A stretch of DNA of 64,000 nucleotides from Diploptera punctata (Eukaryota > Arthropoda > Insecta > Blattodea > Blaberidae): NCBI GenBank assembly GCA_030220185.1, contig JASPKZ010005707.1:434001-498000 (forward strand), written 5' to 3'. How positions within the stretch are numbered: position 1 is the stretch's first letter; every line of letters starts with the position of its first letter. The notes under the pieces were generated by a model. That model searched no databases, was not told the DNA's origin, and saw only the letters and a program-made list of their open reading frames with translations. Below are positions 2,818 to 38,000 of the stretch, piece after piece. Position numbers and translations under genes: made by a program.

Positions 2818-3029
2818 TGGTAGTAAAAGATTCCGGGGTATGTGGCCGTGGTCTATAACTGGCGTCGAGTCTACGACAGGGAAACGACAGCTTCTAGCGC
2901 TCGCCACTGAAGATGCCCTCCGCAGTTGAGGGAGAAACGTCTGGAAGAAACGCCAGTTATAGACCACGGCCACATAGCCCGGAATCTTTTACTACCATGA
3001 TTACCGGCCGTGAAAGCCTGCATTCCACT
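2818..3029 (+). mobile_element. 212-bp snap-back element with hammerhead-like core and 13-bp TSD
   Basis: Two 48-nt arms (2817-2864 and 2951-2998) are inverted copies with one mismatch. They enclose an 86-nt loop and are followed by a tail containing CCGGCCGTGAAAGCCT. The element is flanked by a perfect 13-bp direct repeat, ATTTATTCAGATA, at 2805-2817 and 3030-3042, the mark of insertion. The loop holds CTGAAGA (2907-2913), a hairpin, then GAA and ACGTC (2934-2941), the layout of a minimal hammerhead ribozyme. No coding capacity. The larger element at 20865-21728 has the same tail and architecture. PLEs are known to carry hammerhead motifs, so a non-autonomous PLE relative is my inference. 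Confidence 0.7.
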
Positions 3030-3067
3030 ATTTATTCAGATAACTTTCGATGACAAAAGCTCCTGTA

Positions 3068-3275
3068 ATACATAATAGCACGGATTTCCAGGGTTGAGCC
3101 TACGTTTATTTTCTTTATGGATCGTATTCCTATTAGTAATTATTGTTCCTAGGTATATGAATTCAGCCACTTTTTCAAAATTTCGTTCATTTGTAATTAA
3201 CTGTCCATTTCCATTTTACATTTACTTCCAATCCCATTCTTAGTGTCTCTCAATAAAGAGTGCCTTACTTCTATA
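3068..3275 (-). mobile_element. LINE family C fragment (reverse transcriptase middle)
   Basis: Read on the minus strand it matches the segment of family C just after the RT catalytic box (GLEVN-KTK, then FKYLGTIIT and a GNACYYA-like end), diverged and broken by small indels. Fuller copies lie at 26303, 29140 and 43964. Confidence 0.7.
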
Positions 3276-3389
3276 ACACACATGTATTTAAATTATTGAC
3301 GTTATAAATGTATTGTTTTATTCAAATCATATATTTTAATAGAATCTGGTTTTATGTATTAAATAATGGGGTTTAAGCAATATGACCTC

Positions 3390-4120
3390 GTTAATTTATC
3401 ATAAGTAATTGCACGAGGGATTTCCAAATTATCGATAAATTCACGACTCACGAAGTGAGGAGTGAATTTATCTAGAGAATTTGGAAATCAAGAGTGACCT
3501 TTGTTAGGACTATTTAACGAATAAAATTAAGCTCTTTACTCACAAATCATTATTTAACTATAGTTATTTTAAAATATTTATATATTTAATGTAAACGGCG
3601 ATGTTTGAAAACAAATGCTTCTTTTGTTTATCACTGCAACCAGATCATACTATTTATTGCTAAAGGAACGCAATATTGTAAGAATGCTCTCTAGTGGAGA
3701 AAAAATGAAACACATCAAACTGTATATTAATTCATTTCTGATGTCGTATGATGTAAATATGACAATTATATTTTTCTGGATTGTTACCTGGGAAAAAATA
3801 CATTTAAGAAAGTGCAAACAGTGGTTTCTTTTTTTGGTGGTATAATCAATTGCTACAAATGTTTCTATATTAACTCCCGCATGCGGCATGTGTTGACATT
3901 CATGCACCATGTATACAATGTGATAGTCGTATTTGTCACGGGCTCAGTCACTGTAAAATAATGGTCAGACCTGTTTAGAATATTAAAAAGGAGGAGCTCT
4001 CTTTAATATGGTAAATATAACACTGATAAATATTTCGTGAAACACGACTCTGATTGGTTGTAAAACAGAAATCATTGAAACGTGATTGGTCAGTGACTCC
4101 CATTTGGGGCATGAGTTAAA
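3390..4120. repeat. Unclassified interspersed repeat, partner of 39858-40500
   Basis: Starts ATAAGTAATTGCACGAG and ends GGGGCATGAGTTAAAT. A second copy at 39858-40500 shares both ends and several internal blocks (GTAAACGGCGATGTTTG, GAAACACATCAAACTG) but carries different indels. A short piece of the right end also follows the PLE coding region at 36400-36430, so the family may be PLE-related. No convincing protein is encoded. Confidence 0.65.
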
Positions 4121-4592
4121 TATTAATATAAAATTATAGAATATTCACCTGAAAGGTCCGTCTCCTCAACTTAATTATCATTTAACTGTAGCGCTTTCGG
4201 GACTTGTCCCATCATCGGCAGGATTCAAAACTGGTGTTTCACTGAAGATCTGGTAGAGGGGGTTGCATGTATTTGGTTCGTTTTCGTTTATCAGGCTGTC
4301 GTTGTGAGCTGCTTTCATGATTTCCATCTCTTCGAGTACGTTTATCATCGCTGGATTATTTTCTCTGTGCATTACTGTTAGGGTGTTTTCAATATTTAAC
4401 ATGCGATGTCCTTCATGGATAACGTGTTTTGCATAGCTTGATTTACCTTCTGCGTGAATGAAGTCTCGAAAATGTTCTTTGAATCTGATGTTAAAACTCC
4501 TGTTTGTCCTTCCTATATAAAATTTGTTGCAGTCCTTACATGTCAGTTTATAAACTCCTTTGCTGTTGAAAATGTTATTTTCTTCAAATTAC
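4121..4592 (-). mobile_element. Penelope-like element fragment, GIY-YIG endonuclease end, inverted copy
   Basis: On the minus strand an uninterrupted frame runs from about 4590 to the stop at 4178. It encodes GVYKLTC then FYIGRTNRS, the GIY-YIG nuclease core with its cysteines, and a tail ending DDGTSPESATVK. It is an almost exact inverted copy of 5549-6020. PLEs use a GIY-YIG endonuclease fused to reverse transcriptase; only the endonuclease end survives. A hammerhead-like core spans 4186-4221. The open frame lacks an upstream Met. Confidence 0.82.
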
Positions 4593-4593
4593 A

Positions 4594-4701
4594 CAATATA
4601 CCTAGTAATAACAGTTATACAAGATTCCGTTTTCACTGCGGTCCGCCACATTTAAATAACTAACAGAAGCAATTTGTGTTTTTGCCAATTTAAGGGTTAA
4701 A
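4594..4701 (+). repeat. 110-bp interspersed repeat, second copy inside CPR-3 intron
   Basis: Contains ACTGCGGTCCGCCACATTTA. The inverted counterpart at 52372-52484 matches over the whole stretch with a few substitutions. It sits directly against the end of the inverted PLE arm. Confidence 0.7.
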
Positions 4702-4892
4702 GGTCCCAATTTCAAGGCCTGGGCCTAGCCAACCTGACCATATTTTTCGCGATTTATCTTAATTCTAAGGCAACTGCTGGTTGCAAATGCATTACTTTCT
4801 TAAATAGTCCATAATTCACTTAAATGTCAACAATAAATTTAGAAGATGCAAAACATAGATGAATTGTTGTAGCCTCATTATCATTGTTGTGA

Positions 4893-5375
4893 ATAGAAGT
4901 GATTTGGAAGAACCTAAATAAGGCAAACCTAGAGGAAATAGAAAAAGTCAAAGCACAGTTTTTAAAGATAGCGCTAAGCGTATCAAAATATACGCCTTCG
5001 CGCCTAACATACATACTGACAAAGGAACCATTCTTCATAGAAGAGCTCCACCTGGACCTTCTCGTGCCGGCAACAGATGCCTACAAAGAACTGCTGAGGG
5101 AACTCAACTAGAAGAGAGAACGGATATGGCCTGAGTTCTACGCAACGGATGCGATGATCTACAGGGAATGGACAGCAGCCAGATACGACCTCAGACACAC
5201 CGTGACGAGAGTCGCGGTCCATGGTTTCCACCACAGGATATGCACAACAGTGAAGCGCCATAACCCAGAAGAAAAGTGCAAGTGCAAACTATGCGAGTCG
5301 CACTGCGACCGATATCATCTATTACAGTGTAAAAACATAGGAACATCGATAACAGACTTTTGTAAGACATGAAAA
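4893..5375 (+). pseudogene. LINE C-terminal domain with cysteine/histidine knuckle
   Basis: One frame, broken by a single TAG at 5109-5111. It encodes a post-RT region (KYTPSRLTYILTKEPFFIEEL) and then a knuckle with spacing C-x2-C-x3-C-x3-H-x3-C (CKLCESHCDRYHLLQC, encoded at about 5285-5332). A related knuckle lies at 50470-50700. I recognise the general type of LINE tail but not the clade. It lies between the two inverted PLE copies. Confidence 0.6.
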
Positions 5376-5388
5376 CAGTTCTTTCTAC

Positions 5389-5958
5389 ATGACCATTGAA
5401 TCTGACAACAACAAGAAAACATGGATAACACTTACATACATAGGAAAAGAAACGACAAAATTAGCCAATGCACTAAAGAAAGCCGATAAAAACGTAAAAA
5501 TAGCATACAGAACCAATAACAAATTAAACAACATAATAAACAATAACATTGAAGAAAATAACATTTTCAACAGCAAAGGAGTTTATAAACTGACATGTAA
5601 GGACTGCAACAAATTTTATATAGGAAGGACAAACAGGAGTTTTAACATCAGATTCAAATAACATTTTCGAGACTTCATTCACGCAGAAGGTAAATCAAGC
5701 TATGTAAAACACGTTATCCATGAAGGACATCGCATGTTAAATATTGAAAACACCCTAACAGTAATGCACACAGAAAATAATCCAGCGAAGATAAACGTAC
5801 TCGAAGAGATGGAAATCATGAAAGCAGCTCACAACGACAGCCTGATAAACGAAAACGAACCAAATACATGCAACCCCCTCTACCAGATCTTCAGTAAAAC
5901 ACCAGTTTTGAATCCTGCCGATGATGGGACAAGTCCCGAAAGCGCTACAGTTAAATGA
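5389..5958 (+). pseudogene. PLE GIY-YIG endonuclease region with one premature stop
   Basis: A single frame of about 190 codons. It contains the lysine/asparagine-rich linker preceding the nuclease, then GVYKLTCKDC and FYIGRTNRS (GIY-YIG core). A lone TAA stop (5659-5661) replaces the GAA codon of the inverted twin, and the frame then continues unchanged to the stop at 5956-5958. The nuclease makes the nick that primes PLE reverse transcription. The RT domain is absent, so this copy cannot move itself. Confidence 0.82.
5915..5950 (+). ncRNA. Hammerhead-like core in PLE 3' end
   Basis: Stem I CTG (5915-5917) pairs with CAG (5948-5950). CCGATGA is followed by one unpaired T, hairpin GGGAC-AA-GTCCC, GAA (5938-5940), palindromic AGCGCT and A at the cleavage position. 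The consensus would be CUGANGA; here U4 is C, so activity is doubtful. The motif overlaps the last codons of the nuclease frame. The inverted twin is at 4186-4221. Confidence 0.5.
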
Positions 5959-6117
5959 TAATTAAGTTGAGGAGACGGACCTTTCAGGTGAATATTCTAT
6001 AATTTTATATTAATTTTGAATAACCTCAACGGAACACATCATGAATCTTATAAAAGTTGATGAGTTAAATAGTCATTATTATGACCAAAAAATTAATATG
6101 AATCTCAAGGAACATAT

Positions 6118-6445
6118 CATCATCATCATCATCATCCAGGGATTAAGCCCGTTGGCTCTTTCCGGTTTCATGAAAGCTAGAATTGTTAAAATTGTTCAGA
6201 CCATCTTCTGTGTGGTCGTCCAACATTTCTTCTTCCGTGCGGTTTATAATTTAGCAATAATTTTGGAAATCTTCCTTCTGACTTTCTATCAATATGTTCT
6301 TTCCAGTCGTTCCTATATTTAATTATTCGGTCTGTAAGTTTGAAAATATTTAGTTCCTTTCTTATATCTTCATTTCTTTTCTTATCCAGCAGAGTATATC
6401 CTGCTATATTTCTTAAAAATCTCATCTCAGCTGCTTCCAATCTTT
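6118..6445 (-). mobile_element. LINE family B, 3' end (C-terminal tail)
   Basis: The minus-strand frame 6186-6440 encodes [20 protein letters not shown], then [17 protein letters not shown] and stop, followed by a 3' UTR ending in (GAT)n at 6118-6134. The C-terminal GRRNVGRP motif is typical of RTE-like elements. A near-identical copy is at 34960-35245. Confidence 0.8.
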
Positions 6446-6550
6446 GTTATATATATTACTTATATATGCTGTTAGCTACAGTTTTGATTGAATGATTTAT
6501 TCCATAGGCTACTAGAATATGCGAAAAGTGTGAAAAAAATATATATATAT

Positions 6551-6882
6551 CATCATCATCAACATCCTGTATCATGGCAGCTGCCGCCGTCTTCCGGAAA
6601 CCAAAGGCCATTCCTCTCTGTCCATCCACTGATCTTGCTCCAATCCTGTGATATTCATAGCTGCTTCTACCTCTTCTGTCCAAGTTTTCTTCGGTCTACC
6701 TCTCTTCCTCCTTTCTATTAGGATCTATTCCATAACAATGTTAGGCAATGTTTGCTCTGGCATTCTTTTGACATGGCCATACCACCGTAATATTTTCTTT
6801 TCTATAATGTCTATGAAGCCCGGCTCCTCTTGTACACCCACAATTTTCCTTATTTCTTTATTTCGTATTCTATCCATTCTAG

Positions 6883-6884
<2 letters not shown>
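6551..6884 (-). mobile_element. LINE family D, 3' end
   Basis: The minus strand encodes RMDRIRNKEIRK, then ILRWYGHVKRMPEQTLP, then an RRKRGRP-type motif and GRRRQLP-like end, broken by small frameshifts. It ends in (GAT)n. A longer copy is at 49664-50375. Both 5' ends are truncated; here the break falls at a (TA)n tract. Confidence 0.75.

Positions 6885-6920
<36 letters not shown>
6884..6920. repeat. (TA)n microsatellite
   Basis: Pure TA dinucleotides between a LINE fragment and a SINE head. Confidence 0.95.
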
Positions 6921-6922
<2 letters not shown>

Positions 6923-7241
6923 CACCGCTGTGGTCTCGAGGTAGCGTGCTGCCTTGTCACGCAGCAGGCCCGGGTTCGATCCCCGGTCGGGGCAGTTTTT
7001 CTGGGTGAGGTTTTTTATCGGGGTTTTTCCTCACCTGTAAGACAAATGTCAGGAAAACTTTAAGGCCCAAACGGTCCCCGAAATCATATGGCCATCGTCA
7101 TTATCATCATCACATTCACCGGTGTAGTAAGCAACGGGAAGCTACCACACCTACAATTCCCTAGTAAAGCTGCAAGCATAGCATGAAAATGCCATGATTG
7201 CAGTGAAGGACCTGCCTTCGGGCAGAATTACTATGGATGGA
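6921..7241 (+). mobile_element. tRNA-derived SINE family 2, full length
   Basis: The head carries RNA polymerase III-like boxes (TGGTCTCGAGG and GGTTCGATCCC). The body includes GAGGAAAAACC-type complement and CATCATCAT stretches. The 3' end is TTCGGGCAGAATTACTATGG followed by ATGGATATAT. At least ten full or partial copies occur here, making it the commonest SINE of the window. Confidence 0.88.
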
Positions 7242-7259
7242 TATATATATACAGTAGCT

Positions 7260-7740
7260 AATACGCGGCGTGCGTTCCTACGCTAAAATGAATTAATGTG
7301 TTTTTTTTGTTTAGTTGAATTCGTAAAAAGAAAAGTAATTATAAGTGTATATCGTAATTATATTTAGATACCCCGTACTCATCACCCGATATTGTCCGGC
7401 AATCTACTCATCCCGATCTTATTTGCATCAATGAGCTAAAATAGAAATTGTTATTGTGAGTTATAGACATATGCCGTGGCGAACTTTTTTGTAGAATTTT
7501 TTAGATACTCAATTCTGTGTATATTAATTTGGTATATATGTTACGGTTTAGGTAGTGTGAGCCCATTTAAGCGTCTAAAAAAACTACTTTTTATTACACC
7601 GACGCCTTTTTTAAAGCTCCGGCCCTAGAGTGCGTGCGGTAATATGTTATGAACGTAATTATCCCAAGAAATATAAATGGTGGTAAAAACCCCATTCAAA
7701 TCGGTAAAATATTTTCTAAGTCCATGAACAACAGACAGAT
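7260..7740. repeat. Unclassified repeat of the TGCCCGGGAA family
   Basis: Shares TTTTTATGTTTAGTTGAAT-like, CCCGATCTTCTTGGCAT-like and GAGCTGAAAGAC-like blocks with 22480-22795, 24555-26300 and 38400-39370. The 3' half matches the 22.5-kb and 39-kb copies in order. No protein recognised. Confidence 0.6.
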
Positions 7741-7755
7741 GCACTAATTGTTATA

Positions 7756-8079
7756 TATCCATCCATCCATAGTAATTCTGCCCGAGGGCAGGTCTTTCAC
7801 TACAATCATAGCATTTTAATGCTATGCTTTGCAGCTTTACTAGGAATTTGTAGGTGTGGTAGCTTCCCGTTGCTTTCCACACCGGCGAAACATGATGATG
7901 ATAATGATAAGGATGATGATGACGACCGAATGATTTTCGGGGACAGTTGGGCCTTAAGCTTCCTGATATTTGTCTTACGGGTGTGGAAAAACGCCGAAAA
8001 ACCCTCACCCAGGAGCGTGATCGAACCCGGGCCCGCTGCGTGACAAGGCAGCACGCTACCTCGAGACCACAGCGGTGGA
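7756..8079 (-). mobile_element. SINE family 2, full length
   Basis: Complement of the 6921-7241 copy with the head at 8079 and the CCATCCATAG end at 7756. The two copies are inverted about 500 bp apart around the repeat at 7260-7740. Confidence 0.88.
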
Positions 8080-8280
8080 CTATTTTTATATGTAAATATT
8101 ATTTAATCACTTATTTTTAGGTGAAGATGCCGGTGATAAAAAATGTAGATAACTCAGTAAAAATAATACTTTTGGATCAACTATTGGCTATTAACTACGT
8201 AATACTGTAACATGTTGTATTTTTCCTTAATCATGTACGCTATGGCGTGCCCCCCCAGAAAAGATATTTGTATACATTTA

Positions 8281-8385
8281 CATACATACATACATACATA
8301 CTACATACATAAGAAAAAGACATAAAGAAAGACAAGAAAGAACAGAAAGAAAGAACAGAAGAGAAAGACAGACAGAAAGAAAGTA

Positions 8386-8437
<52 letters not shown>

Positions 8438-8446
8438 AAAGAAGGA

Positions 8447-8493
<47 letters not shown>

Positions 8494-8527
8494 GAAAGAA
8501 AGGAAAGAAAGAAAGGAAAGAAATGAC

Positions 8528-8573
<46 letters not shown>

Positions 8574-8971
8574 GAAAGAAATACAGAAAGAAAGAAAGAA
8601 AGAAAGATAAGAAAGAAAGAAAGAAAGAAGGAAAGAAAGAAAAAAGGAAAGAAAGAAAGAAAGAAAGTAAATAGAAGAAATAAAGAAAGAAAGAAATAAA
8701 TACAAGAAAGAAAGAAAGAAAGAAAGGAAGAAAGTACAATACAGTAAATACATAAAGAAAGAAATACATAAATAAAGAAATAAATGAAATACATAAATAC
8801 ATACATAACATACATAAATACATAACAACATAAATACATACATACATAAAGACATACATAAATACATACATACATACATACATACATACATACATACATA
8901 AATACATACATACATACATACATACATACATACATACATACATACATACATACATACATACATACATACAT

Positions 8972-9026
<55 letters not shown>

Positions 9027-9086
9027 TACATACATACATACATACATACATACATACATACATACATACATACATACATACATACA

Positions 9087-9117
<31 letters not shown>
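8281..9117. repeat. Compound microsatellite: (GAAA)n, (TACA)n with a (CA)n core
   Basis: 8320-8760 is AGAAAG-rich with scattered G or T interruptions. 8760-9117 is TACA tetranucleotides, interrupted by a CA dinucleotide block at about 8982-9021. The long frames seen in it are repeat translations, not genes. Confidence 0.97.
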
Positions 9118-9165
9118 TGTTCTTCCCAAGGGCAGGTCTTTCACTGCAAGCTCAGCATTCTCCAC
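9118..9165 (-). mobile_element. SINE family 2, 3' end scrap
   Basis: Only the GGGCAGGTCTTTCACTGCAA complement of the SINE end is left, abutting the TACA tract. Confidence 0.6.
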
Positions 9166-9189
9166 TCCTTCCTTAACTCAGCTTTCCTT

Positions 9190-9555
9190 TTTTTTATCCG
9201 CATAGAAACCATTTATTTTAATATCGTCTATCATCTGATGTTTTTTTTCTGCCTCTAACTTTCTTTCCGTTGACCATTCTTTCTAGAGCATCATTCAGCA
9301 GTCAGTTTTTTCTTAGCCAATGGCTAGTCCAATTTATTTTCCTCTTCTTTATGAGTTTTAGCATTGTTCTTTCACCGACTCTGTTTAGCACATCTTTATT
9401 TTTTTATTTTGTCTGTCCATTTTATACGCCCCGTCCTTCTCCATATCCACATCTCAAAAGCTTCCAGTTGTAATGTCCAAGTCTCTGCACCATACAACGC
9501 TACACTCCACACAAAGCACTTCACTAACCTCTTCCGTAATTCTTTTGCCATATGT
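9190..9555 (-). mobile_element. LINE 3' fragment (RTE-like tail, distinct family)
   Basis: The minus strand encodes MAKELRKRLVKCFVWSVALY, then GAETWTL and, after frameshifts, a W-R-R-T-G-R-I-K-W segment. LYGAETWTL is the conserved post-RT motif of these elements. Degraded, with the 5' end lost near 9555. Confidence 0.65.
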
Positions 9556-9595
9556 TAAATAAAAAGGGTATTTCGTTGTGGTCTGAAGATATCCT

Positions 9596-9928
9596 TTATT
9601 TAGGATACAAAAAAAAGTAAAGTGATCCCACAACAGGCCCGGAAGCCCTTGGGGTAGTAGGAGGTTGAGGCTCCTACTTTTTCTATACAATCGGCACTTT
9701 ATGTCAGCCGGGTTGTCAGCCCTGCATGATGGCCGTCTTTACCCCCAGAACAAGCGTCTGTACTCATTTCCGTTAGAGGCTGAGTCGACCCCAGGGGCAT
9801 AGTGCCGCCAAAGGGTTTGGGTCAGTTTAAAAATCCTGACCCCAATGGGACTTGAACCCTCGACCCTCTGGCTTGTAGCTCAGTGCCTTAACCACTACGC
9901 TACGGCGTGTCCCCTTATTTAGGATACA
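9596..9928 (-). mobile_element. tRNA-derived SINE family 3 with 14-bp target-site duplication
   Basis: The head at the right has GTAGCGTAGTGGTTAAGGCA (A-box region) and GGTTCAAGTCC (B box). The body ends in a TACTTTT tail at the left. Perfect direct repeats TTATTTAGGATACA lie at 9596-9609 and 9915-9928, so this is a recent insertion. The second copy is 46598-46901. Confidence 0.92.
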
Positions 9929-9929
9929 C

Positions 9930-10735
9930 AGTATAGATTATGCAGTGGGCTTTCAGATTTGGAGCCGATCACAAAATCATTCTTTTATCCCTGAAATCAT
10001 GTGCATAACCCTGGGCTATGTTACTTGGGTTTCTAAGTGGCTGTTCTTATTTTGGTACATGTTGTGGGATAACATTCTAGTATTATAAATCAATTTCAAC
10101 ACGAGACAAATTTCGAATGCATCCAACCATGTCATAAATGTAGGTTACATAATGTGATACATTCAGAGCCACTCTATAACATAAGGCTGTTATTAATTAT
10201 TATGCGTACTACTTTTTTATTGCATTTTGCAATATTCAGTAATTTATTTGCGGCCATAACGAATGTATTGAAAAGCGTAATAGGAGCCGGTAGCAATACG
10301 TAATGGACCACAACATACAAACATCGACAAAATTTGTGACAGAATGATAGCTTTGTCTTTTCTCTAATCCAGCACACCCAAGCTAAATTTCAGTTAGCTT
10401 TCCCTCAAGAGGGACAATTTAATCTATTTGATAGCGTTGATCTGTCAGTAGATTAGTCTCTTCCACGTTTGTAACAACGACATTATTTAACGTTAAATTT
10501 TATATACTTTATTAAATTTATTGACCAAATCAAAGACAATTTCTATACCTAATTAATTTTCAATTTGATAATAAGTTTTATTTTAAACCTGTAAAAATGT
10601 TATTAATGATACAGAGATATCGATGAGTGTATAAGACAACCAACTCAACGTATGATTCATATTTCATTCACATGAAATACCTACATTTATAAAGTAGCCT
10701 GAAAATTGCTGATATTTAGTTATTATAGTGTTAAA
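9930..10735. other. Unassigned AT-rich stretch
   Basis: I see no gene or recognisable repeat in these 800 bases. Confidence 0.5.
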
Positions 10736-10740
10736 TTGGA

Positions 10741-11190
10741 ATAAATTCTATCTTCAAGCCACAGTTAGTCCAAAAGCATTCAAGACTGAAAGTGTATAAA
10801 ACACTGGCTCTTCCAACTCTTTTGTATGGTAGCGAAATATGGACGTTGAAACAGAAGGATATACAGAGACTTAGATCTGCTGAAATGAGATATCTTCGGA
10901 GGACTGCAGGATACACACTACTAGATCACAAAAAAATGAAGACATCTTAGAAGAATTACACATGGAATCTTTAGAAAACAAAATTTCTGATTATAAGTCA
11001 AGATGGATGCAACATGTTCATCGAATGGAAGATCACAGAATACCCAAACAAATGTTAAGATATCAACCTGCAGGAAGAAGAAGACCAGGACGTCCACTCA
11101 AAAGACTTCTGGGTGGTGTTTCTCTTGAGGCCGAAACAGATCAAGAAATGGCCTAAATTCGTGAATGTACTATGATGATGATGATGAAAT
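10741..11190 (+). mobile_element. LINE family A, 5'-truncated 3' end
   Basis: Very close to 2064-2508 of the large copy, including the ATG-repeat tail. One A is missing in the A-run near 10930-10936, shifting the frame, so only the last 64 codons (to 11156) are intact. 5' truncation is typical of LINE insertions. Confidence 0.92.
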
Positions 11191-11454
11191 TGGAATGGTT
11201 GGGAAAAAAGAATTTTAAAATCTCTATCTTGTACAATACAAAGATCGTTCATTTTTTTAAACTAGTAATTTAAGCGTTTTGTTTGTTTTTAAGGGGTTGA
11301 TGGGCGAAATTTCTATTTTCTACGTTTCTTGAGCTAGAGACTTGATTGTTTGTACAAATATCCAATGTATGATACATAATTATGTGTTAAAGTTTCATTC
11401 TGCTGAGAGATTTATTTTATGAATTATAAAAATTTGTTAAAAATAATAATTTGT

Positions 11455-11580
11455 TAATATGTCTGAAGAAGGTACAGTGTACCGAAACAGCTGCCACTGA
11501 ATTCTATAATAAATATGAAAATCAAATAAAACTACGTTTTATTTTTATTTAATTAATAAATATGGATTTTCATCAAGTAA
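11455..11580 (+). mobile_element. PLE-like terminal fragment with hammerhead-like core
   Basis: CTGAAGA (11463-11469), one A, hairpin GGTAC-AGT-GTACC (11471-11483), GAA, then A-CAGCTG. Next comes an AATAAAACTACGTTTTATT block also present at 36985-37015 beside a PLE coding remnant. No coding sequence. Confidence 0.55.
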
Positions 11581-11589
11581 ACACCAATT

Positions 11590-12280: not shown

Positions 12281-12284
12281 TTAT

Positions 12285-12636: not shown

Positions 12637-12646
12637 AGATTCATTA

Positions 12647-12904: not shown

Positions 12905-13081
12905 ACATTAAAATTTCGTATCACTTTTTTATATATCAGTGTGCAACTATTTCTTTGGTCAAAACATGTAAAAGATTAAACCTTAGGGAGAAGTTATAAC
13001 AACAATAGATATTAGTGATATGAAAGAGACCGTGTTACAATGTTAAAAAATCGCCAATATGGCCACTAAAATTATATATAC

Positions 13082-13082
13082 C

Positions 13083-13469: not shown

Positions 13470-13764
13470 AGCGTCACTGCTATAAAGTAAAAATGTTCTC
13501 TTTAATTTGCTTACTTGTTATAGTCAGCTACTAGATGGCAGTGAAGACCGAGTTCTCGCGACATCTAGTAATAATGGAGAATATAATACATATATAAGAA
13601 AAATAAATGTGTGAATTGGATTCGCCTGGTGGTGTAATGGATATCACACTGAGGTACAGACTCAGAGATCCGGGTTCGAATCCCGTCCAGGCATTTATTT
13701 TTCTTATCATACCATATTAAGCTTGCATTGCTCAATGTTAAACATTTAATTATAACTTCGATAA
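13470..13764 (+). repeat. tRNA-containing composite repeat, unit 1
   Basis: A unit of about 293 bp: GCGTCACTGCT start, ACTAGATGGCAG region, AAGAAAAATAAATG, a tRNA-like sequence at about 13628-13695, CATTTATTTTTCTT (inverted copy of the left flank), then a 65-bp tail. The next unit follows directly at 13765. Confidence 0.8.
13628..13695 (+). tRNA. tRNA-like (Arg-like body), probably not functional
   Basis: Folds as a cloverleaf from CGCCTGG: D arm with AATGGATA, anticodon stem CTGAG/CTCAG with loop GTACAGA, and T arm GGGTTCGAATCCC. The acceptor has six pairs plus a first-pair mismatch. The D arm resembles tRNA-Arg, but the anticodon position reads ACA, which is not a normal animal tRNA. Four copies in the window all sit inside the same repeat, so I take it as part of a mobile unit. 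Could be polymerase III-transcribed. Confidence 0.45.
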
Positions 13765-14006
13765 TGCGTCACTGCTGTAGAGTACAAATGTTCTCTTTAA
13801 TTTGCTTACTTGTTATAGTCAACTACTAGATGGCAGTGAATACCGAGTTCTCGCGACATCTAGTAATAATGGAGAATATAATACATATATAAGAAAAATA
13901 AATGTTTGAATTGGATTCGCCTGGTGGTGTAATGGATATCACACTGAGGTACAGACTCAGAGATCCGGGTTCGAATCCCGTCCAGGCATTTATTTTTCTT
14001 ATCATA

Positions 14007-14831: not shown

Positions 14832-16271
14832 TTAACCATGGTATCCATAACCACCATAGTAACTTCCATAACCACCACTTCCATAACCTCCGTAGTAACG
14901 ACCATAACCACCACTTCCATAGCCTCCATAGTAACTTCCATAACCACCATAGCTCAGTGAAGGAGCATATGACAATGCAGGAGCAGCATGTGCTATAGCT
15001 ACAGGAGCTGCGTGGGCTACAGCAACAGGAGCGTGAGCTACAGCAACAGGAGCGTGAGCTACTACAGGAGTAGCGGGATGCACGGCGTGGCCAGACTTCT
15101 GGACAACAGCATTGAATCCGTTGTGAGGATCAGCAGTGTAGTGAACAGTCCTGGTGGTGCCGTCAGGTTCAACAAGACTGTAGTGACCTTGAACTGTGTC
15201 GCCTTGACGCTCTTCAGACTGTTCCTTCACGTCACCGGTGTGAGCATCGTGAACTCCATAACTGAACTGGTAGTGGGCAGGAGCCTGGAATTGTTTATTA
15301 TTGTACATTATATTATCCTTATAAATACATGAGTTGGAAAAAAATATACCAAAAAATTCAAAGTAGCTTACTGAACTTCTAGGAAACAAATATTAATTTA
15401 TGTAATCCATCCATAGTAATTCTGTCCGAGGGCAGGTCTTTCACTGCAATCATGCTATGATTTGCAGCTTTTCTAGGAAATTATGTAATATTATACAATA
15501 ATTCAAACAAACCCTAAATTCTCGTTTGCTTTCCCTCAAGAATAAGATAATTTAATTTCTTTGAAACTATTGTTTTGTCTCATTCATATTTCTGACAACG
15601 ACGTTATTTGAATTTAAATTGATGTGTTTTACGTATTAAATTGAAGAGCAAAATCAACGAATATTTTAATATCTAATATTTCTATATATTTACTTATATA
15701 TAATTGTAAATATCTGGGTTTATTTGATTATACAGACAATATTTTTTGACACTTATATGAATTTCTTACGTGTTTATATTTTACATTCTAGAATTTTACC
15801 TGATTTGTAATCATAAAATAAAGTATTATATCGTTACTTTTGAAATACAAATTAAGAGTAAAATAATTCTCGGAACATTTGGTTTAAGCGGAAAAAAATA
15901 ATATTCTTAATGACTTAAACACACATGTTTTGCGTTTGATTTCATTGGCAACTCACAATATTTAAATATGATTCAATATTTAAATACTTACGAAGTAATC
16001 CACAGCCACAGGAGCTGCATGTGCAACAGCTAGAGGTGCATAGCCTGGTGCAGCAGATGCCACAGTCACGAAACACGCGATAATTGCTACCTGCAGAATC
16101 AAATTCAGCCGCGTCAAGACACAGTATAACAGTCTATCAGTTTCGTATGTGCAGTTATCCTAGGATCTTTACATATTATAATAAATTTAGTATTTTCAAA
16201 AGCTTTTTTTATATTATATTGGAAACATGATATTTATAGATTTTTCATTATTATATTCAAGTGGTCAAATA

Positions 16272-20475: not shown

Positions 20476-20845
20476 GGCGGCTCCGTGGCGCAAAGAGGTT
20501 AGACGCTCGCCTCTCAACGCTGCGGGAGGTCCACAGGATCGAGTCTCAGTCACTCCATGTGGGTGTTCGTGGTGGACCGAAACGGAGCATGGGCAGGGTT
20601 TTTTCTCGGAACGTCTCCCGTTTTCCCTGCCACAAATTTCATTCCACCATTTCTCCATAATCATCTCATCCATTTCGGTTCATTTTATTCATCCGCCTCT
20701 GTGACGGCGCGTCAGGATTGGTCGGCCGGTACCCTTGTAGGTCACAGACCTCTATATAATAGAAGGGCTTAATCTCATATCTTCCCTCGAGTCCCCACCC
20801 TGAATGTGGACATGGGTTGTGGATATTTTTACTTTTTTATTTTAT
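20476..20845 (+). mobile_element. tRNA-derived SINE family 1, full length
   Basis: The head GGCTCCGTGGCGCAAAGAGG (A box) and GGATCGAGTCTC (B box) is followed by a 290-bp body ending in a T-rich tail. The 2.5-kb copy lacks the head. Confidence 0.85.
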
Positions 20846-20852
20846 ATAACAT

Positions 20853-21740
20853 TCTATGGACTATGATGATCTTGAAGAAGATTTCCGGGCTGTAGGCCGT
20901 GGACTCGAGGCTTGAAGTTCCCCGACATTTCGCCAGAGTCTGCGACAACTCTTGGGGATATCAGACGCAGTCACCTGATTGGCTTAGAGACACAACTGCT
21001 TTTTAGGCATTCTAAATCATCGAATTCAATCGAAAACACATTTAATGCATTCCAAGTAACATACAATACACTTTAAAACCAAAATAATATAATTAAATAT
21101 CATTAATCTAACAAAATAATACAACTTAAAAAAAGGGGCGTGGCATCCTCGGACAGCCCCGCGAATGGCTAACTCATTATTCGCGACATCAATATACTTA
21201 AATTAAACTAAATTAATAAATACTCAACGATTAGCTTAAAACAAGCCTTAAGAACATCATGGGCATCAATTAATTGCGATATCCTAATGAAATAACACGA
21301 AAATTTACACTTTAAAAAATCACTAGCCTCTGATTGGCTGACGGCCACAAGCACCATTTTCTAACAATCACGAACTTAAACATTAGTCGGACTGCACTGC
21401 CGCTACCATGCAGGTTAGAAAGTTGGTAATTCGTTTGTTCTTTATTATATCGGTATCTAAACATCTTCTAAATCACACCGGGGCAAATGCTTAAGCAGTA
21501 ACCCGGGGTTCTCCTTTCCTGGACATCCAGGAGAACCAAAAGGAATTGCTCATCGCTTATCATTAATTTGGCTAGCCTCAAGGCCTTTCCAACAAGACTA
21601 CTTTAAACAGACGCAGTCTCTGGCGAAGCGTCAGGGAATTTCAAGCCTCAAGACCACGGCCTATAGCCCAGAAATCTTCTTCAAGATCATCATAGCAACT
21701 CCGGCCGTGAAAGCCTAAGTTAATACACTCTATGGACTAT
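20853..21740. mobile_element. Foldback element with hammerhead-like arms and 12-bp TSD
   Basis: Direct repeats TCTATGGACTAT at 20853-20864 and 21729-21740 flank an 864-bp element. Its left start (GATGATCTTGAAGAAGATTT) is the inverted copy of about 21620-21697, with arms near 75 bp. A tail with CCGGCCGTGAAAGCCT follows the right arm, as in 2818-3029. Each arm holds a decayed hammerhead-like block: GAA-GCGTC at 21625-21632, and on the minus strand GAA-ATGTC near 20925-20932. The 600-bp interior has no recognisable protein. Confidence 0.78.
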
Positions 21741-28142: not shown

Positions 28143-28144
28143 CT

Positions 28145-30325: not shown

Positions 30326-30544
30326 GTATTTTACTCATTTTTATATAAATATATGTGTCATTGGATTCTCTATGGAAAACACTATCATTTATATATAAAC
30401 GTTGGAGTAAATACACGAGTAGCAGCTGGTGGATGAAAGAATAAGTGAAGTGATGATATGACATATTTAAATATAGTACAGTCCTAATGAACAGCCTCAA
30501 GATTTGTAGATTCAAAGAAACACATCCACTAAATCGAACAGAAC

Positions 30545-30700
30545 ACAGCCTTGCATTTTGCGCTTAGAGCATCTGTGATTGTATTATGATTTTTTCGAAC
30601 GTTTTCAACTGCAAATGTCACTTCAAATGCTCCTCAGAATCTTTATGTTTATTTAAAGCACGCGTCATATTTTGAAAGGCGCAAAACCCTTGTTTATTCC
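30545..30700 (-). pseudogene. Possible hAT-type TTF zinc-finger remnant
   Basis: The minus strand encodes GFCAFQNMTRALNKHKDSEE then HLK, stop, HLQ. The F-x6-L-x2-H-x3-H spacing resembles the TTF-type domain of hAT-derived proteins. Short and broken; a weak call. Confidence 0.35.
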
Positions 30701-30704
30701 AGAC

Positions 30705-32085
30705 ACCAAATTTATTACTAAACAAAACACATGGCCAACAAAAAAGTTTTTGTAATGGCACACTACTGCATAACCAAGAATTTTTTTAATGAAGATTGTA
30801 TGACTTGGCAGTACCATTGAACGAGTCTGGTGTAACGAGAAGTGATATGTTCTTTATGTTTTAGAAATCAAAGTAATTTTGGTACAAATTATATTTGAAG
30901 AGAATAATATATGCTCAGACTGGCGGTTGTACCCAGGAGCTTTGGATTTCTGTGCCGCGAGGCTACAAAAATGCTGACCATTGAGTCAAACTTCAGTGAA
31001 ACCTGAAATGTAGATACTATGGCGCCAATTGAAGACAACGTACTAATCCAAAACACCCTTATTGTCCAATACAGATCCAATTTAAGCGCTGACGTGTTTC
31101 GCTAAATCGTACACCACGTATTCACCCCCAGTGAGAATTTTAGAAGTCTAGAAGCGGTTCTCTATGGTCTGGAAATCCTTAATATCCTTTGAATATTACG
31201 GTTGCCATAGCAACCATGAGAAGGCAAACTTTTGTTCCAAACTTGTTAAGTGTCAAAGATATAATCGTTTAAATTATAGTTCAGTTCACTGTGGTAGGAA
31301 CGCTGTAGCAGACACAATGTGAACTATCAGCAGCCATTCGCTTCAGGTATAAATGCTCAATGTATTTCCCTACAAACCGGATTTAAGTTACCCAAAATAA
31401 TATAATCTACATTCAGATATTCAAAACAAACAAAAGATGACGGTACTTGAGATTACAACAAGGTTGAAGACCAAAACACATTCCTCTACTATTCATAAAG
31501 GTTAACAAAAGATTTCCCTGCCAAGGGATGTATAAAATATTGCAAAACATATAACAGCAGAGTTAAGCGAGTGTACCTCGTCTTCTGGGTTGAAGGTAAT
31601 TTAAGTGCCAGCGAGTCTATCTCGTCTTCTGAGTCGAATGAGTTATGAAGCTGACGTAAAATAGACATTATTTTGTCAGAGGAATATAATAATTAAATAA
31701 TAAAATAAAATAATTGTACTGTTATATAATTAGAATATAGTTGAAGTGGCACTTACTCACTTCAACTGAAAAGCCGCTACTGAAATAAACACATTTCTAG
31801 ACTGTATATTTTACTCACTTTCAAATGATAGTGTTCTCCAAGGAGAATCTAATGACACATCAAATTCCATTCCGACAAAACATGACTTACCTAGTTATTT
31901 TCTTGTATATTTCATACATTTTCATCAAGTGAATTGTAATGTTCTTTTCGATTTCCATTTGTAACTCAGTATCAACTTAGCTATTTCTTTTATCCATACG
32001 ATTCATTTTATAGTAAAATTCAGAAGAAAGGCTCATAATGTTTTATTATTTTAATAAAAATGAAGAATTTTGTGCTTTAGTGCAA
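30705..32085. other. Unassigned stretch downstream of CPR-2
   Basis: No gene or clear repeat seen. Confidence 0.45.
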
Positions 32086-32091
32086 TTTATT
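32086..32091 (-). terminator. Candidate polyadenylation signal of CPR-2
   Basis: AATAAA on the minus strand, about 170 nt past the stop. Confidence 0.45.
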
Positions 32092-32259
32092 GGCAATATA
32101 TACATAAATACGTTACAAAATTATCACATGACTAAAATAACAAACATACGTTAGTCACAACTTGAACCACTGGACTTCTATATTATGAGAATTTGATGAA
32201 ATTGCTAGTCCTTACTACGTGATAATGAAAATAGAGTATATTAATGACTGGCCTGTGCT

Positions 32260-35200
32260 CTAACCATGGTAACCATAACCGTAACCGTAACCGCCGAGAC
32301 TAAGAGCAGGAGCAGCATGAGCATAAGAAAGGACGGGGGCGGCATGAGCTACAGCTAGAGGAGCTGCGTGAGCTACAGCTAGAGGAGCTGCGTGAGCTAC
32401 AGCTACGGGAGCCGCATGAGCTACAGCTACGGGAGCGTGAGCTACTACAGGCGTAGCGGGATGCACGGCGTGGCCAGACTTCTGGACAACAGCATTGAAT
32501 CCGTTGTGAGGGTCAGCAGTGTAGTGGACTGTCCTAGTGGTGCCATCAGGTTCAACAAGACTGTAGTGTCCTTGAACGGTATCTCCTTCACGCTGTTCAG
32601 ACTGTTCTTTCACGTCACCAGTGTGGGCATCGTGAACTCCATAACTGAACTGGTAATGAGCAGGAGCCTGCAAAAAAACATATTAATAACTTCATGTTTT
32701 GCTCAAATTTTTATTTACGATAAGTTGTCTCTTTTTGGTGATATCAACATGAGAGATAGAATTGGTCGTAAATTTATTTAATCGCTTGTGCAATTTCGTA
32801 AAAATGTCTGTTATGAAAATTGACCATCCCATTTATATAATGTCGTTATGTTATCAAGCTATAAAAGTATATAATGAATTCGTATCCCTGGATAGTTTTA
32901 ACAAGATTCAATATGTAACACACAGACATATATTGTAGCATTATTATAATTATTTAGACAAGTATTTACAAAAGCAGAGGTTTAGTAACGACACGGCCGA
33001 AGGGAAGCGAGTTACTGAATCTAATATTTAACGTGTTGTCCACAATATTTTATCTACGTTCAGAAGATTGTAGATTAAACTAAGGTAAAGAGAGAGTGAG
33101 AATGTACTAATGTTAATTATCATTAACATTGTGATAGCAACTAATTTTATTGTTAGATTAGCATATTTTTGTTTATTATCTACCGTTGTTAACTGTGTTT
33201 TTTGTATGTTTATTCAACATATGTTTGTCCTGATTGAGTTAAAGAGATAACAATATATGTCGTTAACATTATTAGGCTAAATAGATGTTTAATACTAAAT
33301 AGATATTAAGAACTAACGATTAATTATTTCGTTACTTTACAAATATATGTGTTACTTGTTAGAAATTGTTCATAACGTTAATCAATTAAAATTTAATAAA
33401 ATGTACTAAGACGAATATTAATAAATTTCGTTATCTTAAATCCAATATTCAACAATTAATTGTTAGCATTGGGCAGTTTAAGAAGAACAGCAAAATATTT
33501 GAAAATGATCCGAGTGATTTATTTACCCAGTGGCAGATATATTGACAGTTTTTATACTAACAACGTTAGAAAATGTTAAATAAGAAATATGAAGATTGGG
33601 AGTTTTTATTTTTTGAATTGAAGTACGAAAACGGCGTAGACCATATAAATACGTATCTAAATCGAAACAGATACAGTAAGTGGTGAAGTTCTAAGACGAG
33701 AATATCACAAGCTGTAAATTCCTATGAATTATTTTATGTAAATTGACGAAGATTACATTTTACAGTGGAATCAAGAAAGATGATTACAATATATGGGATA
33801 TGAAATAGAAAATAATGGAAAATGATAGAAATGAATGAAACTAATCTGACAAGGGAACTGTCAACAATTGTGTGCCGAAATCTACCTTGAAATACCTCCC
33901 AGAAAAGCGTTGTAATGTACAATGGGCGCCCCAAAAAAATCCGTTTTTAACTGCAAGACACAGAAATAGAAGCCAGAATCCAGCAATGGCAATTCACTTT
34001 ACACTGATTGAATAAGAGTGGATTGGAGTTAGGTGGGACACGGAGCTGACAGCAGGTAATGAGGATAATCCAATCTACCGCGTACTGAGTTGTATTACTT
34101 CCCTATAGTTTAAATGAGAGATTTTATATTTGACTTTAATGTCTTGCGGTTAAAACGGCAGGTATATATAATTTTTTTTGGATAAGCCCTTGGTACATCA
34201 CAACACTTCTCTGGAGGAAATTTGAAGGTACGTTTCGGCATGCGATGGTTACAGTTCCCTTGTATCAAACCTGAAAATAAAATCCATTTATTAATATAAC
34301 TAATGTGTTGAGTACCCATTATAAATATAAGATCATTGCTAATGAAAAAATGTTATACTTACGTAGTAATCGGTAGCAACAGGTGCGTGAGCAATAGCAA
34401 CTGGAGCTGCGTGAGCTACTGCTATAGGAGCTGCGTGCGCTACAGCCAATGGTGCGTGAGCTACTGCTACTGGTGCGTAGCCAGGAGCAGCAAGACTCAC
34501 TGCGAGAAGTGATGCAAAAAGTGTCACCTGTTTAATCACATGAAAATTTAAAATGTAAATAGTGTGTTGCAAAACAATTCCGAAGAGAACAGCTGAAATA
34601 TATGCTTTCGCTACTAGAGGAGGTATGGTGAGTACAGTCTGTTATAACTACAAAACCAGATATATATCTTTATAATTTTAAAATACAGGGTGTGGCATAA
34701 GTCAGTTAACCACTGCACATGGTTGCAAGGAAAAAAAATTAGATTGGTTGAAACTGGGGTTTGAATACGGGACCTTTAGAATATAATCTCAAACACTACT
34801 GCTTAAACAACAATGGGGGTCACATTGAACAATTTCGGTAGTTTTTTTATATAGATGTTGTAAGCTACAGAAAATAATATATTTGCATTTTCGGTTAACT
34901 GACTTATTCTGCAGCCTGTATTGTACAAATGTGAATCACCTGACTCCTTGAAGAGTTGATGAAATACTTATATATACTGGATAAGAAAAGGAATGAAGAT
35001 ATAAGAAAGGAACTAAATATTTTCAAACTTACAGACCGAATAATTAAATATAGGAACGCCTGGAAAGAACATATTGATAGAATACCTGAAGGAAGATTTC
35101 CAAAATTATTGCTAAATTATAAACCGCACGGAAGGAGAAATGTTGGACGCCCACACAGAAGATGGTCTGAACAATTTTAACAATTCTAGCTTTCATGAAA

Positions 35201-37224
35201 CCGGAACGAACCAACAGGCTTAATCCCTGGATGATGATGATATATAGTCCACCACTGTGGAATCGAGGTAACGTGCTGCCTTGTCATGCAGCGGGTCCGG
35301 ATTCGCCCCCGGTCGGGGTAGTTTTTCTGGGTGAGGTTTTTATCGGGGTTTTTCCTCACCTGTAAGACAAATGTCAGGAAAACTTTAAGGCCCTAACGGT
35401 ACCCGAAATCATATGGTCATAATCATCCTTATCATTATTATCATCATCATCATCATCCTTTACCAGTGTGGAAAGCAACGGGAAGCTACCACACCTACAA
35501 CTCCCTAGTAAAGCTGCAAGCATAGCATGAAAATGCTATTAATGCAGTGAAGCACCTCCCTTCGGGCAGAATTACTATGGATGGATATATATATATATAT
35601 ATATATATTTGAAAATTATTCGACAAATACAATAAATATTTTATATTAAACTTTAATTTTATAAGTATCCAACTAACTCACTGGTACTCTCGAACTTGGA
35701 GTTTCTTGGCCGCACGGATGTGTACACCATTACTTAATATGTTCCAATCATTGCTTGTATACTTCGCCTCCCTCAAATTATAGTTAATGTTTCCTCCATT
35801 TAATTCTTGTCCTACTTATTGGTCGTTTTCCCCCTGGTTTTCCTATAAGAAGTTTCCAAGTCCCTATTTCATTCCCCATTCGTGCCGCATGTTATGACCA
35901 TCGTAGTCTACAAGACCTAACAGATCTTAATGCGTCAATAGTCCACTGTTATGACATTTTCTATTCACCTGTTTCAATTTTAAAATGTGTACCTTATAAA
36001 ACAGTTGTCCTCAACTATTATAACTTCTGTTATAAACGTCCCCATACTATTAAAACTCAAGACCATTCAAAGAAATGTTTCGTCCTCAGGAATTTTATGT
36101 AGCATGGTATGGTAGGCCTACATAATACCACGGTACATAAGAATTCCTGAGGATGAAGCATGACTTTGAAAGGCCTTGAGTTATGATAGTGTGACGAGGT
36201 TTATAACAGAAATTATAGTTGATAACAACTGTTTTATAAGTTACAAATTTTAAAATTGAAGTTATTTTGACCTCAATGGTGTTCATGCATGATTATTAAG
36301 ATCTATATAATCACCTGTTTGTTCGTCTATTTTTGCCCAAAAATTTTAAAGTAAAAAAAGTGTAATGCATAAAGTATGATTTTAACACACTTTATAATGA
36401 CTATTTAACTCATGCCCCAAATGGGAGTCAATGACTACTTTTAAATTTATTAATTTCTACAGCCTCCAAAAGATCTAACTTCTTACCCTTATCACAAATA
36501 TGTAAAATTTCAAAATTTGGATCGAAACAATGATTAAATTGGAATAGGTGGTTAGCATATTTTGAATTTTCTAAATTTCTGTTATATGCTCTCATGTTTT
36601 CCTTTATCCGAGAGATAAAAGGTCTACCAGTTTGTCCTATATAGACATTGTCACATGTGCCACACTTCAATTTATATACACCTGACAATTTTTCTTTTTT
36701 TGTTTTGGTTTTATTGTTTTTTATTATATTTTCTAGAGTTTTATTAGTTTTAAATGCCACATTAATGTTCAACTTTTTAAAGTGTTTAGATATTTTATTT
36801 GAAAGTGGGCCTATGTATGACATTACGACATATTTCTTTATGTTTTCTTTGGGTAAAGGAAAAACTTTGTTAATTGCTTTTTTGTAATGAACCTTCTTAA
36901 TTAAACATTCTATAATTTCAGGGTCATAGCCATTATTAACAGCCAATTGTTTAATAATATTCAATTTATTATTATATGAAAATCAAATAAAACTACGTTT
37001 TATTTTTATTTAATTAATTTATTTAATGAATTAATTAATTTATTTTTGTATTTTCCCCATAAGGCTGTATATAAGCTTGGAATGACAGGAATTTTAACTG
37101 TAGCTTTTATTTTCCTTAACATTGCAATCCGTGTGTAAACGGTACAATTAACGCCCAGAAAAAATAGAAGTGATATAACTGTCATTTCATGGTGATATAA
37201 AATACTTGCCTGGATGAAAGCCAT
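32260..37224 (-). CDS. RR-2 cuticular protein CPR-2 (three exons, GC-AG first intron)
   Basis: A secreted chitin-binding cuticle protein, 195 residues. Exons: 37224-37210 (MAFIQ), 34527-34363, 32667-32260. Intron 1 (2682 nt) begins GCAAGT and ends CAG, a GC-AG intron with otherwise perfect consensus; intron 2 (1695 nt) is GTAAGT...CAG. Both are phase 0. Signal peptide residues 1-18 ([13 protein letters not shown]). AVAHAAP repeats lie before and after the RR-2 domain (about 65-120: [30 protein letters not shown]), and the protein ends GYGYGYHG. The domain is nearly identical to CPR-1, so they are paralogues. Intron 1 has filled with a MITE, LINEs, a SINE, a foldback and a PLE remnant, yet the exons are intact. 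A TATA box lies at 37305-37313. Confidence 0.92.
34684..34920. mobile_element. Mariner-type MITE in CPR-2 intron 1
   Basis: The 233-bp element 34686-34918 has about 28-bp imperfect inverted ends (CAGGGTGTGGCATAAGTCAG and its complement, both reaching GGTTAAC/GTTAACC) and TA on both sides. TA duplication is the Tc1/mariner signature. Non-coding. Confidence 0.72.
34960..35245 (+). mobile_element. LINE family B, 3' end, in CPR-2 intron 1
   Basis: The frame to 35180 encodes [20 protein letters not shown] then [17 protein letters not shown], followed by a 3' UTR ending GGATGATGATGA. Nearly identical to 6118-6445. Confidence 0.85.
35248..35587 (+). mobile_element. SINE family 2, full length, in CPR-2 intron 1
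   Basis: Starts TCCACCACTGTGGAATCGAGG right at the end of the LINE B tail and ends ACTATGGATGG, then (TA)n. Confidence 0.88.
35680..35970 (-). mobile_element. LINE family C, degraded 3' end, in CPR-2 intron 1
   Basis: CTCACTGGTACTCTCGAAC through CCCCCTGGTTTTCCTATAAG is recognisable on the complement, with many changes. Confidence 0.65.
35973..36259. mobile_element. Foldback element with hammerhead-like arms, in CPR-2 intron 1
   Basis: Imperfect inverted arms of about 130 bp (35973-36105 and 36128-36259). The right arm holds CTGAGGA (36147-36153), one T, a four-pair hairpin, GAA (36168-36170), palindromic AGGCCT, T and GAG. The left arm has the decayed complement at 36055-36090. Non-coding. 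Confidence 0.7.
36428..36964 (-). pseudogene. Penelope-like element GIY-YIG region, in CPR-2 intron 1
   Basis: An open minus-strand frame of 178 codons: a basic linker ([19 protein letters not shown]), then [10 protein letters not shown] and [10 protein letters not shown] (GIY-YIG core), HLFQFNH, and [17 protein letters not shown] near the end. This is the PLE endonuclease; the reverse transcriptase is missing. The sequence past its stop (ATTTGGGGCATGAGTTAAAT) also occurs at 4095-4120 and 40475-40490. A different family from 4121-6020. Confidence 0.82.
36985..37020 (+). repeat. PLE-associated terminal block
   Basis: AATAAAACTACGTTTTATT, matching 11520-11550, in the orientation opposite to the adjacent PLE frame. 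Confidence 0.55.
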
Positions 37225-37304
37225 GACTGTAATCCAAATTAGGCTCAAGTTACTGCTGCTTCGACTCCTGTCCTGTACTTGATGGTAGAAGAGTATCAGA
37301 GACT

Positions 37305-37313
37305 CTTTTTATA
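37305..37313 (-). promoter_or_regulatory. TATA box of CPR-2
   Basis: TATAAAAAG on the minus strand, about 80 nt before the ATG; a start site near 37280 is expected. Confidence 0.7.
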
Positions 37314-37614
37314 GGTTTACAACCACGCCTATGCAGTTACCCTACTCCCATTCAGAAACACCCTTCCACCTGACACTGGTACAAACATTGCGTAGTGCGA
37401 TGATAAATAAATTCAATAACAAACATATTGCACGTTCAAAACCTGACTGGTAACTGTATCAAGTTCACTTTTAATTTAACAACTTCAAGTGACACGTAAG
37501 CATCACTTATTAAAAATAAACTTCTCCCATTTAATATAGAATTTACTTATTTCTTGGTCATCAGTAGAAGCAATTTTATAATTTTAAACAGTATATCGCA
37601 TTATTTCATCCATA

Positions 37615-38000
37615 TTTTATCTACTATTATAACAATCAGTGACGTAGTTACTAGGCAACAAAACATATGATGAAAGTTAGTAATTACATTGTACCTGTTG
37701 CTAGGTGCCGTCGTCCTCAACTTTATTAATATATTGTATATAGAATTAACTGGAGCGCTTTCGGAAGTTATCTTCCATCTTCTGCAGGTTGAGTTTGCAG
37801 TACTTGTTGTTGTGTACGGTGATGTATACTCCAACTGTTCATAGCAGCAACTGACTTGTTTTTGACGATCTCGTATAATGGGTTTGACTGGGGTGCGTTC
37901 TCATTAAGAAGTGAGGTGTTGTTTGTTTCCTTTATAATTTGGAGATCTTCAAATATATTTATCCTAGGCAACTACCAACAGGTACAATTTAATGTTTAAC
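37615..38000 (-). mobile_element. PLE 3' fragment with hammerhead-like core
   Basis: The minus strand encodes INIFEDLQIIKETNNTSLLN, NPLYEI and QPAEDGR, the counterpart of the nuclease tail at 5800-5940. The core spans 37750-37787: CAGAAGA, T, hairpin GGAAG-ATAA-CTTCC, GAA, palindromic AGCGCT, C, with CTG/CAG stem I. The outer ends are themselves inverted (TTGTACCTGTTG and its complement). Confidence 0.72.

Follow-up and report, generated by a model that had tools for sequence, protein, structure and literature searches.

Hammerhead-like motifs in Penelope-type insertion remnants of Diploptera punctata

Insertions and other features of the window

The window, a stretch of 64,000 nucleotides (64 kb) of Diploptera punctata contig JASPKZ010005707.1, contained coding and non-coding insertions of the type found in Penelope-like retroelements (PLEs). 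The PLE-A insertion (4123–6059, plus strand) consisted of two head-to-head 3' ends at 4116–4587 (minus) and 5549–6020 (plus), 98.5% identical, and a tail (6021–6059). Its target-site duplication (TSD; 4111–4122 and 6060–6071) overlapped the left arm by 7 positions, and 12 of 4000 random pairs were as good. The left flank (4089–4132) and right flank (6060–6079) matched 36435–36391 at 91% and 100%, respectively. An empty-site alignment at 40.4–40.5 kb recovered the left flank and the duplication with little of the right flank (a rough join, with 8 insert bases left). The repeat present at 4089–4132, 36391–36435 and 40456–40499 was the PLE-A insertion target, and seemingly it also truncates the 3' end of PLE-B, described below.

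PLE-A contained a GIY-YIG endonuclease fragment on the minus strand (4181–4588), the C-terminus of which traversed a hammerhead-like motif (NPADDGTSPESATVK). The match of this fragment to Pfam PF01541 (E 1.3e-4) scored 22.6 bits, exactly at the cut-off of 22.6, and neither of the two right-copy pieces matched GIY-YIG in Pfam. In a protein search with the fragment, 8 of 12 candidates, all unnamed, were found at E ≤ 0.001, and two bore a GIY-YIG label. A search with the C-terminal part gave 8 candidates, none of them significant. When viral contigs were searched with the PLE protein, one stretch fitted a pattern and no relative was found. A separate search of viral contigs with the motif pattern gave a single match, in a contig that by eye was G+C-rich with overlapping reading frames, and this match was taken as chance.

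Two further coding fragments were located near 37 kb. The C-terminus of a PLE-C protein (...LLNENAPQSNPLYEIV...QPAEDGR*) was translated from 37771–37962 (minus strand) and resembled that of PLE-A, by eye only. At its 5' junction, PLE-C carried 46 bp of its own 3' end in inverted orientation (83%), and no TSD was found in its flanks. The PLE-B endonuclease-region ORF (184 aa; 36431–36982, minus strand) was PLE-like by eye (...YIGQTGRPF), and its search against Pfam gave no match at E ≤ 0.01. Its 3' end was apparently truncated by another repeat near 36435.

Three foldback insertions were recognised, all on the plus strand. FB1 (2818–3029; 212 bp) consisted of inverted 3'-end copies (inverted repeat 2817–2998, 72%) and a tail (2999–3029), with a TSD at 2805–2817 (left) and 3030–3042 (right); 18 of 4000 random window pairs were as good. 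Its flanks matched 44.43–44.53 kb, where the junction itself was diverged (a rough empty-site join, with both duplication copies left in). FB2 (20865–21728; 864 bp) had arms at 20861–20944 and 21612–21695 that were 89% identical, a tail at 21696–21728 and a TSD at 20853–20864 and 21729–21740, equalled by 8 of 4000 random pairs. FB3 (35975–36310) had 82% identical arms (35973–36260), a tail at 36261–36310 and a weak TSD (35965–35974 and 36311–36320), equalled by 162 of 4000 random pairs; the longest word shared there, 11 bp, fell inside the arms. Aligned to each other, the right arms of FB1 and FB2 scored 74, whereas 300 single-base shuffles reached 36 at most, and the two insertions have a 3' module and tail in common. 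Both FB1 and FB2 are also adjoined by a 75% similar inverted repeat (2606–2768 and 20553–20729).

FB1, FB2, FB3 and PLE-A all had mirrored arms and a tail at one end only (31, 33, 50 and 39 bp, respectively), with TSDs of 13, 12, 10 (weak) and 12 bp. Penelope families of Adineta vaga have inverted pseudo-LTRs (pLTRs), an optional 31-bp tail, TSDs of 8–10 bp and, most frequently, a head-to-head arrangement, according to the excerpts available of PMC3846280. The insertion structure of the four inserts is of PLE type. For the three foldbacks, PLE identity rests on this structure, as no PLE coding sequence was recognised in them. Two families (PLE-A and PLE-C) adjoined endonuclease fragments, and three inserts of five were without an endonuclease ORF. 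The association with PLEs that had been predicted is upheld by the GIY-YIG fragment in PLE-A and by the structure of the foldbacks, and foldbacks and coding fragments are thereby joined to one kind of element. No reverse transcriptase domain was found in these inserts (Pfam, six of 80 ORFs); RVT_1 was detected only outside them, at 806–2476, in a 557-aa ORF (E 9.1e-40), the long open frame of a LINE-like copy.

Elsewhere in the window, minus-strand ORFs at 14832–15392, 32260–32682, 51043–51381 and 61359–61763 (...GFNAVV) suggest a cuticle gene cluster; we take them to resemble insect RR-2 cuticle proteins. Four similar tRNA matches formed two close pairs (13623–13694 and 13918–13989; 48200–48271 and 48455–48526).

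Hammerhead-like motifs

The original prediction described one hammerhead-like RNA architecture at six loci of the window. We scanned the window with a descriptor consisting of the core CUGANGA with at most one mismatch, 0–2 extra bases, a fully paired stem II of at least 4 bp (at most one G·U), GAA, a palindrome of 4, 6 or 8 nt in the place of stem III, a base other than G at position 17 and a stem I of at least 3 bp. Five matches in four families were obtained, with core positions 2907 (plus), 5918 (plus), 36147 (plus), 37784 (minus) and 4218 (minus). The architecture was therefore borne out at four loci, and the number six was not.

The core C3 U4 G5 A6 N7 G8 A9 and G12 A13 A14 was exact at 2907 and 36147, and U4 was changed at 5918/4218 and 37784. 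A palindromic, loopless stem III with A15.1–U16.1 and H17 was present in all four families (ACGU, AGCGCU twice, AGGCCU). The FB1 motif (2904–2944, plus strand; core CUGAAGA, palindrome ACGU) has its predicted cleavage site 3' of C2941. PLE-A carried the motif twice, at 4186–4221 (minus strand) and 5915–5950 (plus strand), with core CCGAUGA (U4C) and palindrome AGCGCU; the twins were identical in every letter on opposite strands, and cleavage of the right copy is predicted 3' of A5947. The PLE-C motif (37750–37787, minus strand; core CAGAAGA, U4A; AGCGCU) would be cleaved 3' of C37753. For the region 36055–36180, in FB3, the prediction held in the right arm, where the motif at 36142–36182 (plus strand) had an exact core (CUGAGGA), AGGCCU and a putative cleavage site 3' of U36177; it failed for the left-arm copy, which had UGGUCU instead of a palindrome.

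Two loci did not conform. The motif at 11463–11494 (plus strand) had the core CUGAAGA and a stem II and failed both scans: its CAGCUG was displaced by one base, stem I was unpaired and the extra base was A. It is best described as degenerate. A 45-bp block downstream of it (11513–11557) was identical to 36974–37018, that is, it recurred in inverted orientation at the PLE-B 5' junction, and because of this recurrence the 11463 motif is probably the 3' end of the PLE-B family, judging from sequence. The FB2 arms, at 20.9–21.6 kb, had no core and no scan match, and a GAA followed by a block could be discerned there by eye only.

Chance was considered as an explanation, since a loose descriptor might yield several motifs in any AT-rich, repeat-laden 64 kb. 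A first set of 60 dinucleotide shuffles of the window gave no match. In a second set, 23 matches were found in 600 shuffles, never more than one per shuffle and none with an exact core, compared with five in the window, and the reversed window gave none. All five matches fell in PLE-type inserts. The contrast between window and shuffles overstates the surprise, because the descriptor was written after the loci had been seen. With two core mismatches permitted, the shuffles gave 0.23 and 0.28 matches each (the latter 169 in 600), and the window still gave five. Two of the six claimed loci did not conform, and the four families are only partly independent of one another, because the PLE-A and PLE-C motifs were 81% alike over 43 bp and had stem I and the palindrome in common. 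On balance, an origin by chance is extremely improbable. The check proposed with the prediction, a search with the Rfam covariance models, did not support it: no hammerhead was found in the window at the gathering threshold or at E ≤ 10.

Stem pairing and folding

The stem II strands were GGGA/UCCC, GGAA/UUCC, GAAG/CUUU and CCCU/AGGG in the four conforming families and GGUA/UACC at 11463. Within their own locus, 20 of 20 positions were paired across these five loci. When strands were swapped between loci, a mean of 1.75 of 4 positions paired, and the observed total was reached by 1 of 120 permutations. The claim that pairing is kept by differing letters is thus in line with the data; the test shows only that different letters pair, because the four conforming loci had been selected for pairing. 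Stem I was paired at 12 of 12 positions in these four loci, a total reached by 2 of 24 permutations, which is the lowest attainable fraction since two loci have an identical stem I. The 11463 motif, which has no stem I, was left out of the stem I test, and the arms at 20.9–21.6 kb lay outside both tests.

Stems I and II both formed in the minimum-energy single-copy folds of PLE-A and PLE-C; the FB3 fold had only stem I and the FB1 fold only stem II. None of the homodimer folds computed was the hammerhead dimer, a structure that counts as a pseudoknot in the folding model used and is unscored by it.

Coding through the core

The endonuclease frame of PLE-A and PLE-C crossed the core as PA[D/E]DG (NPADDG and QPAEDG, respectively); U4, N7 and the extra base fell on third codon positions. 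The block could accordingly have been kept because the core encodes the C-terminal peptide of the PLE endonuclease rather than for its RNA structure. This reading fits the distribution of the core changes: the families with U4 changed (alanine codons GCC and GCA) were those with the peptide reading, whereas the two families without an endonuclease ORF had exact CUGANGA. With two families on either side, the coincidence of the U4 change with coding through the core is suggestive only. In PLE-C, however, the stop codon fell within loop II, and what follows it of the motif was nevertheless intact (stem II, GAA, AGCGCU and stem I). FB1 and FB3 carried the motif without an endonuclease ORF, and the letters of stem II varied while its pairing stayed. 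All eight protein relatives of PLE-A stopped short of the C-terminal peptide region, and the tail overlapping the motif was kept in none of the eight (four of the eight were aligned). The 3' copy may be under an additional coding constraint, but the architecture is not explained by it, and we regard coding as an unlikely account of the motif.

The extra base and the start codon

One extra base after the core had been predicted for the better-preserved loci. It was present in PLE-A, PLE-C and FB3; in FB1, two unpaired bases stood 5' and one 3' of stem II instead. The extra base was U in each of the four conforming families, so that A9-U-G reads AUG where stem II begins. Counting from A9 to position 17 gave 24 (PLE-A), 26 (PLE-C), 25 (FB3) and 29 (FB1) bases. 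In an Anolis PLE, the ORF starts where stem II does, beyond C3 and G8, and the cut lies 26 bp downstream (PMC11167929, as excerpted). Given the U in four families and this ORF start, the extra base is most simply read as the U of an AUG. Its most likely origin, we infer, is a start codon that was then retained through descent. A role of this AUG as a live ORF start in the present families was not borne out, since three of the four frames close early: after 13 (PLE-A), 10 (PLE-C) and 8 (FB3) codons. The FB1 frame was open for 46 codons, past the end of the element.

The same AUG served as a reference point for the ends of the insertions. The distances from AUG to the arm end and to the tail end were 86 and 117 bp in FB1, 97 and 136 bp in PLE-A, and 108 and 158 bp in FB3. 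In the available part of PMC11167929, a PLE tail of 30–40 bp is linked to reverse transcription from two internal sites, with initiation 111–118 bp into the ORF. The FB1 tail end fits this interval, those of PLE-A and FB3 do not, and the 50-bp tail of FB3 is longer than the published range. The one-sided tail would result from internal initiation of reverse transcription, as the published work ascribes.

A broader proposal would be that distant PLEs have in the ribozyme core a conserved start codon formed with the extra U (A9-U-G10.1), with folding and translation initiation being mutually exclusive, that the 3' copy of the core also encodes the C-terminus, and that ORF-less inverted inserts spread the module alone. 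We consider this combination doubtful as it stands; a start codon embedded in the ribozyme core of some PLEs is nevertheless a testable idea. Within the literature searched, little of which was searched for this subject, a link between start codon and hammerhead was found only in PMC11167929, in the portion available.

Assignment and predicted activity

The motifs are, with a probability of roughly 85%, minimal type I PLE hammerheads, carried by four interrelated PLE-type families in their pseudo-LTR/3'-end module, and the copies in the window are remnants of insertions. PLE hammerheads are described as minimal and without helix III (PMC6155905, PMC7761336), as possibly cleaving as dimers (PMC7761336, PMC6466107) and as forming these dimers via palindromes (PMC6466107), each source being available in excerpt. 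Palindromic stems III and dimeric forms are also listed for several hammerheads, Aedes included, in the legend of Fig S8 of PMC3088659, the part of that source available. The suggestion that a loopless palindromic stem III would need dimers agrees with these published dimeric PLE hammerheads (PMC7761336, PMC6466107). In an intact tandem element, two motifs on the same strand would, following this work, join by their palindromic stem III into a cleaving dimer, which would cut multimeric PLE RNA into units. The copies in the window would represent 5'-truncated or ORF-less inserts built of inverted 3' modules.

Among the five scan hits in the 64-kb window, no two were same-strand copies of one family. 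The only pair within a family, that of PLE-A, lay on opposite strands, and the related minus-strand motifs of PLE-A and PLE-C were 33 kb apart. Inverted copies in one transcript would be expected to pair with each other instead. Because a dimer needs two same-strand copies, which are lacking in every conforming family here, the copies are most likely relics and probably inactive; most of those in the window probably have either no catalytic activity or no partner. Insertion of the Anolis element in vitro did not depend on ribozyme cleavage, and the RNA was not seen to cleave without the protein (PMC11167929, in part).

The ORF-less foldbacks could alternatively be animal retrozymes, small non-autonomous hammerhead elements with circular RNA, rather than PLE debris. 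With 212 and 336 bp, FB1 and FB3 fall in the retrozyme size range of about 170–400 nt (PMC7229834, excerpted text) and carry a hammerhead-like motif. The same text describes metazoan retrozymes as tandem repeats, however, whereas FB1 and FB3 are each a single inverted insert that has a tail at one end. Direct tandem copies of a 150–450-bp unit, a retrozyme trait, were looked for in FB1 and FB3, and both matched themselves in inverted orientation only. A retrozyme origin is therefore very unlikely, and an assignment of the foldbacks to PLEs is preferred.

Comparison with known systems

The architecture itself is already known, and the four families are new cases of known PLE hammerheads. The extra base and the mix of palindromes had been put forward as undescribed; from the excerpts of the sources at hand they are mostly known, the AUG from the Anolis PLE (PMC11167929) and palindromic dimers from PMC6466107, so that features claimed as new gain known explanations.

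The minimal type I PLE hammerheads of Cervera & de la Pena (2014) and Lunse, Weinberg & Breaker (2017), compared through parts of reviews, have in common with the present motifs the core, the absence of a stem III loop, the dimer palindrome and the pseudo-LTR site. Unlike them, the motifs here have U4 changed in two families and an extra U after A9. In the newt satellite and viroid double hammerheads (PMC6155905, in part), a short stem III is likewise completed between two copies; those copies are tandem repeats, whereas the inserts here are inverted. The Adineta vaga Penelope families share the inverted pLTR, the one-sided 31-bp tail, the TSD and the head-to-head junctions. The word 'hammerhead' is absent from the text of PMC3846280, and in the window three of five inserts were without an endonuclease ORF. 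Poseidon PAc of Anolis carolinensis (PMC11167929, excerpts) has a hammerhead at the pLTR/ORF boundary, an ORF starting from stem II and an internal-initiation tail, as proposed here. In contrast to Poseidon PAc, the AUG frame was short in three of the four families of the window, and the copies were 3'-end or ORF-less copies only.
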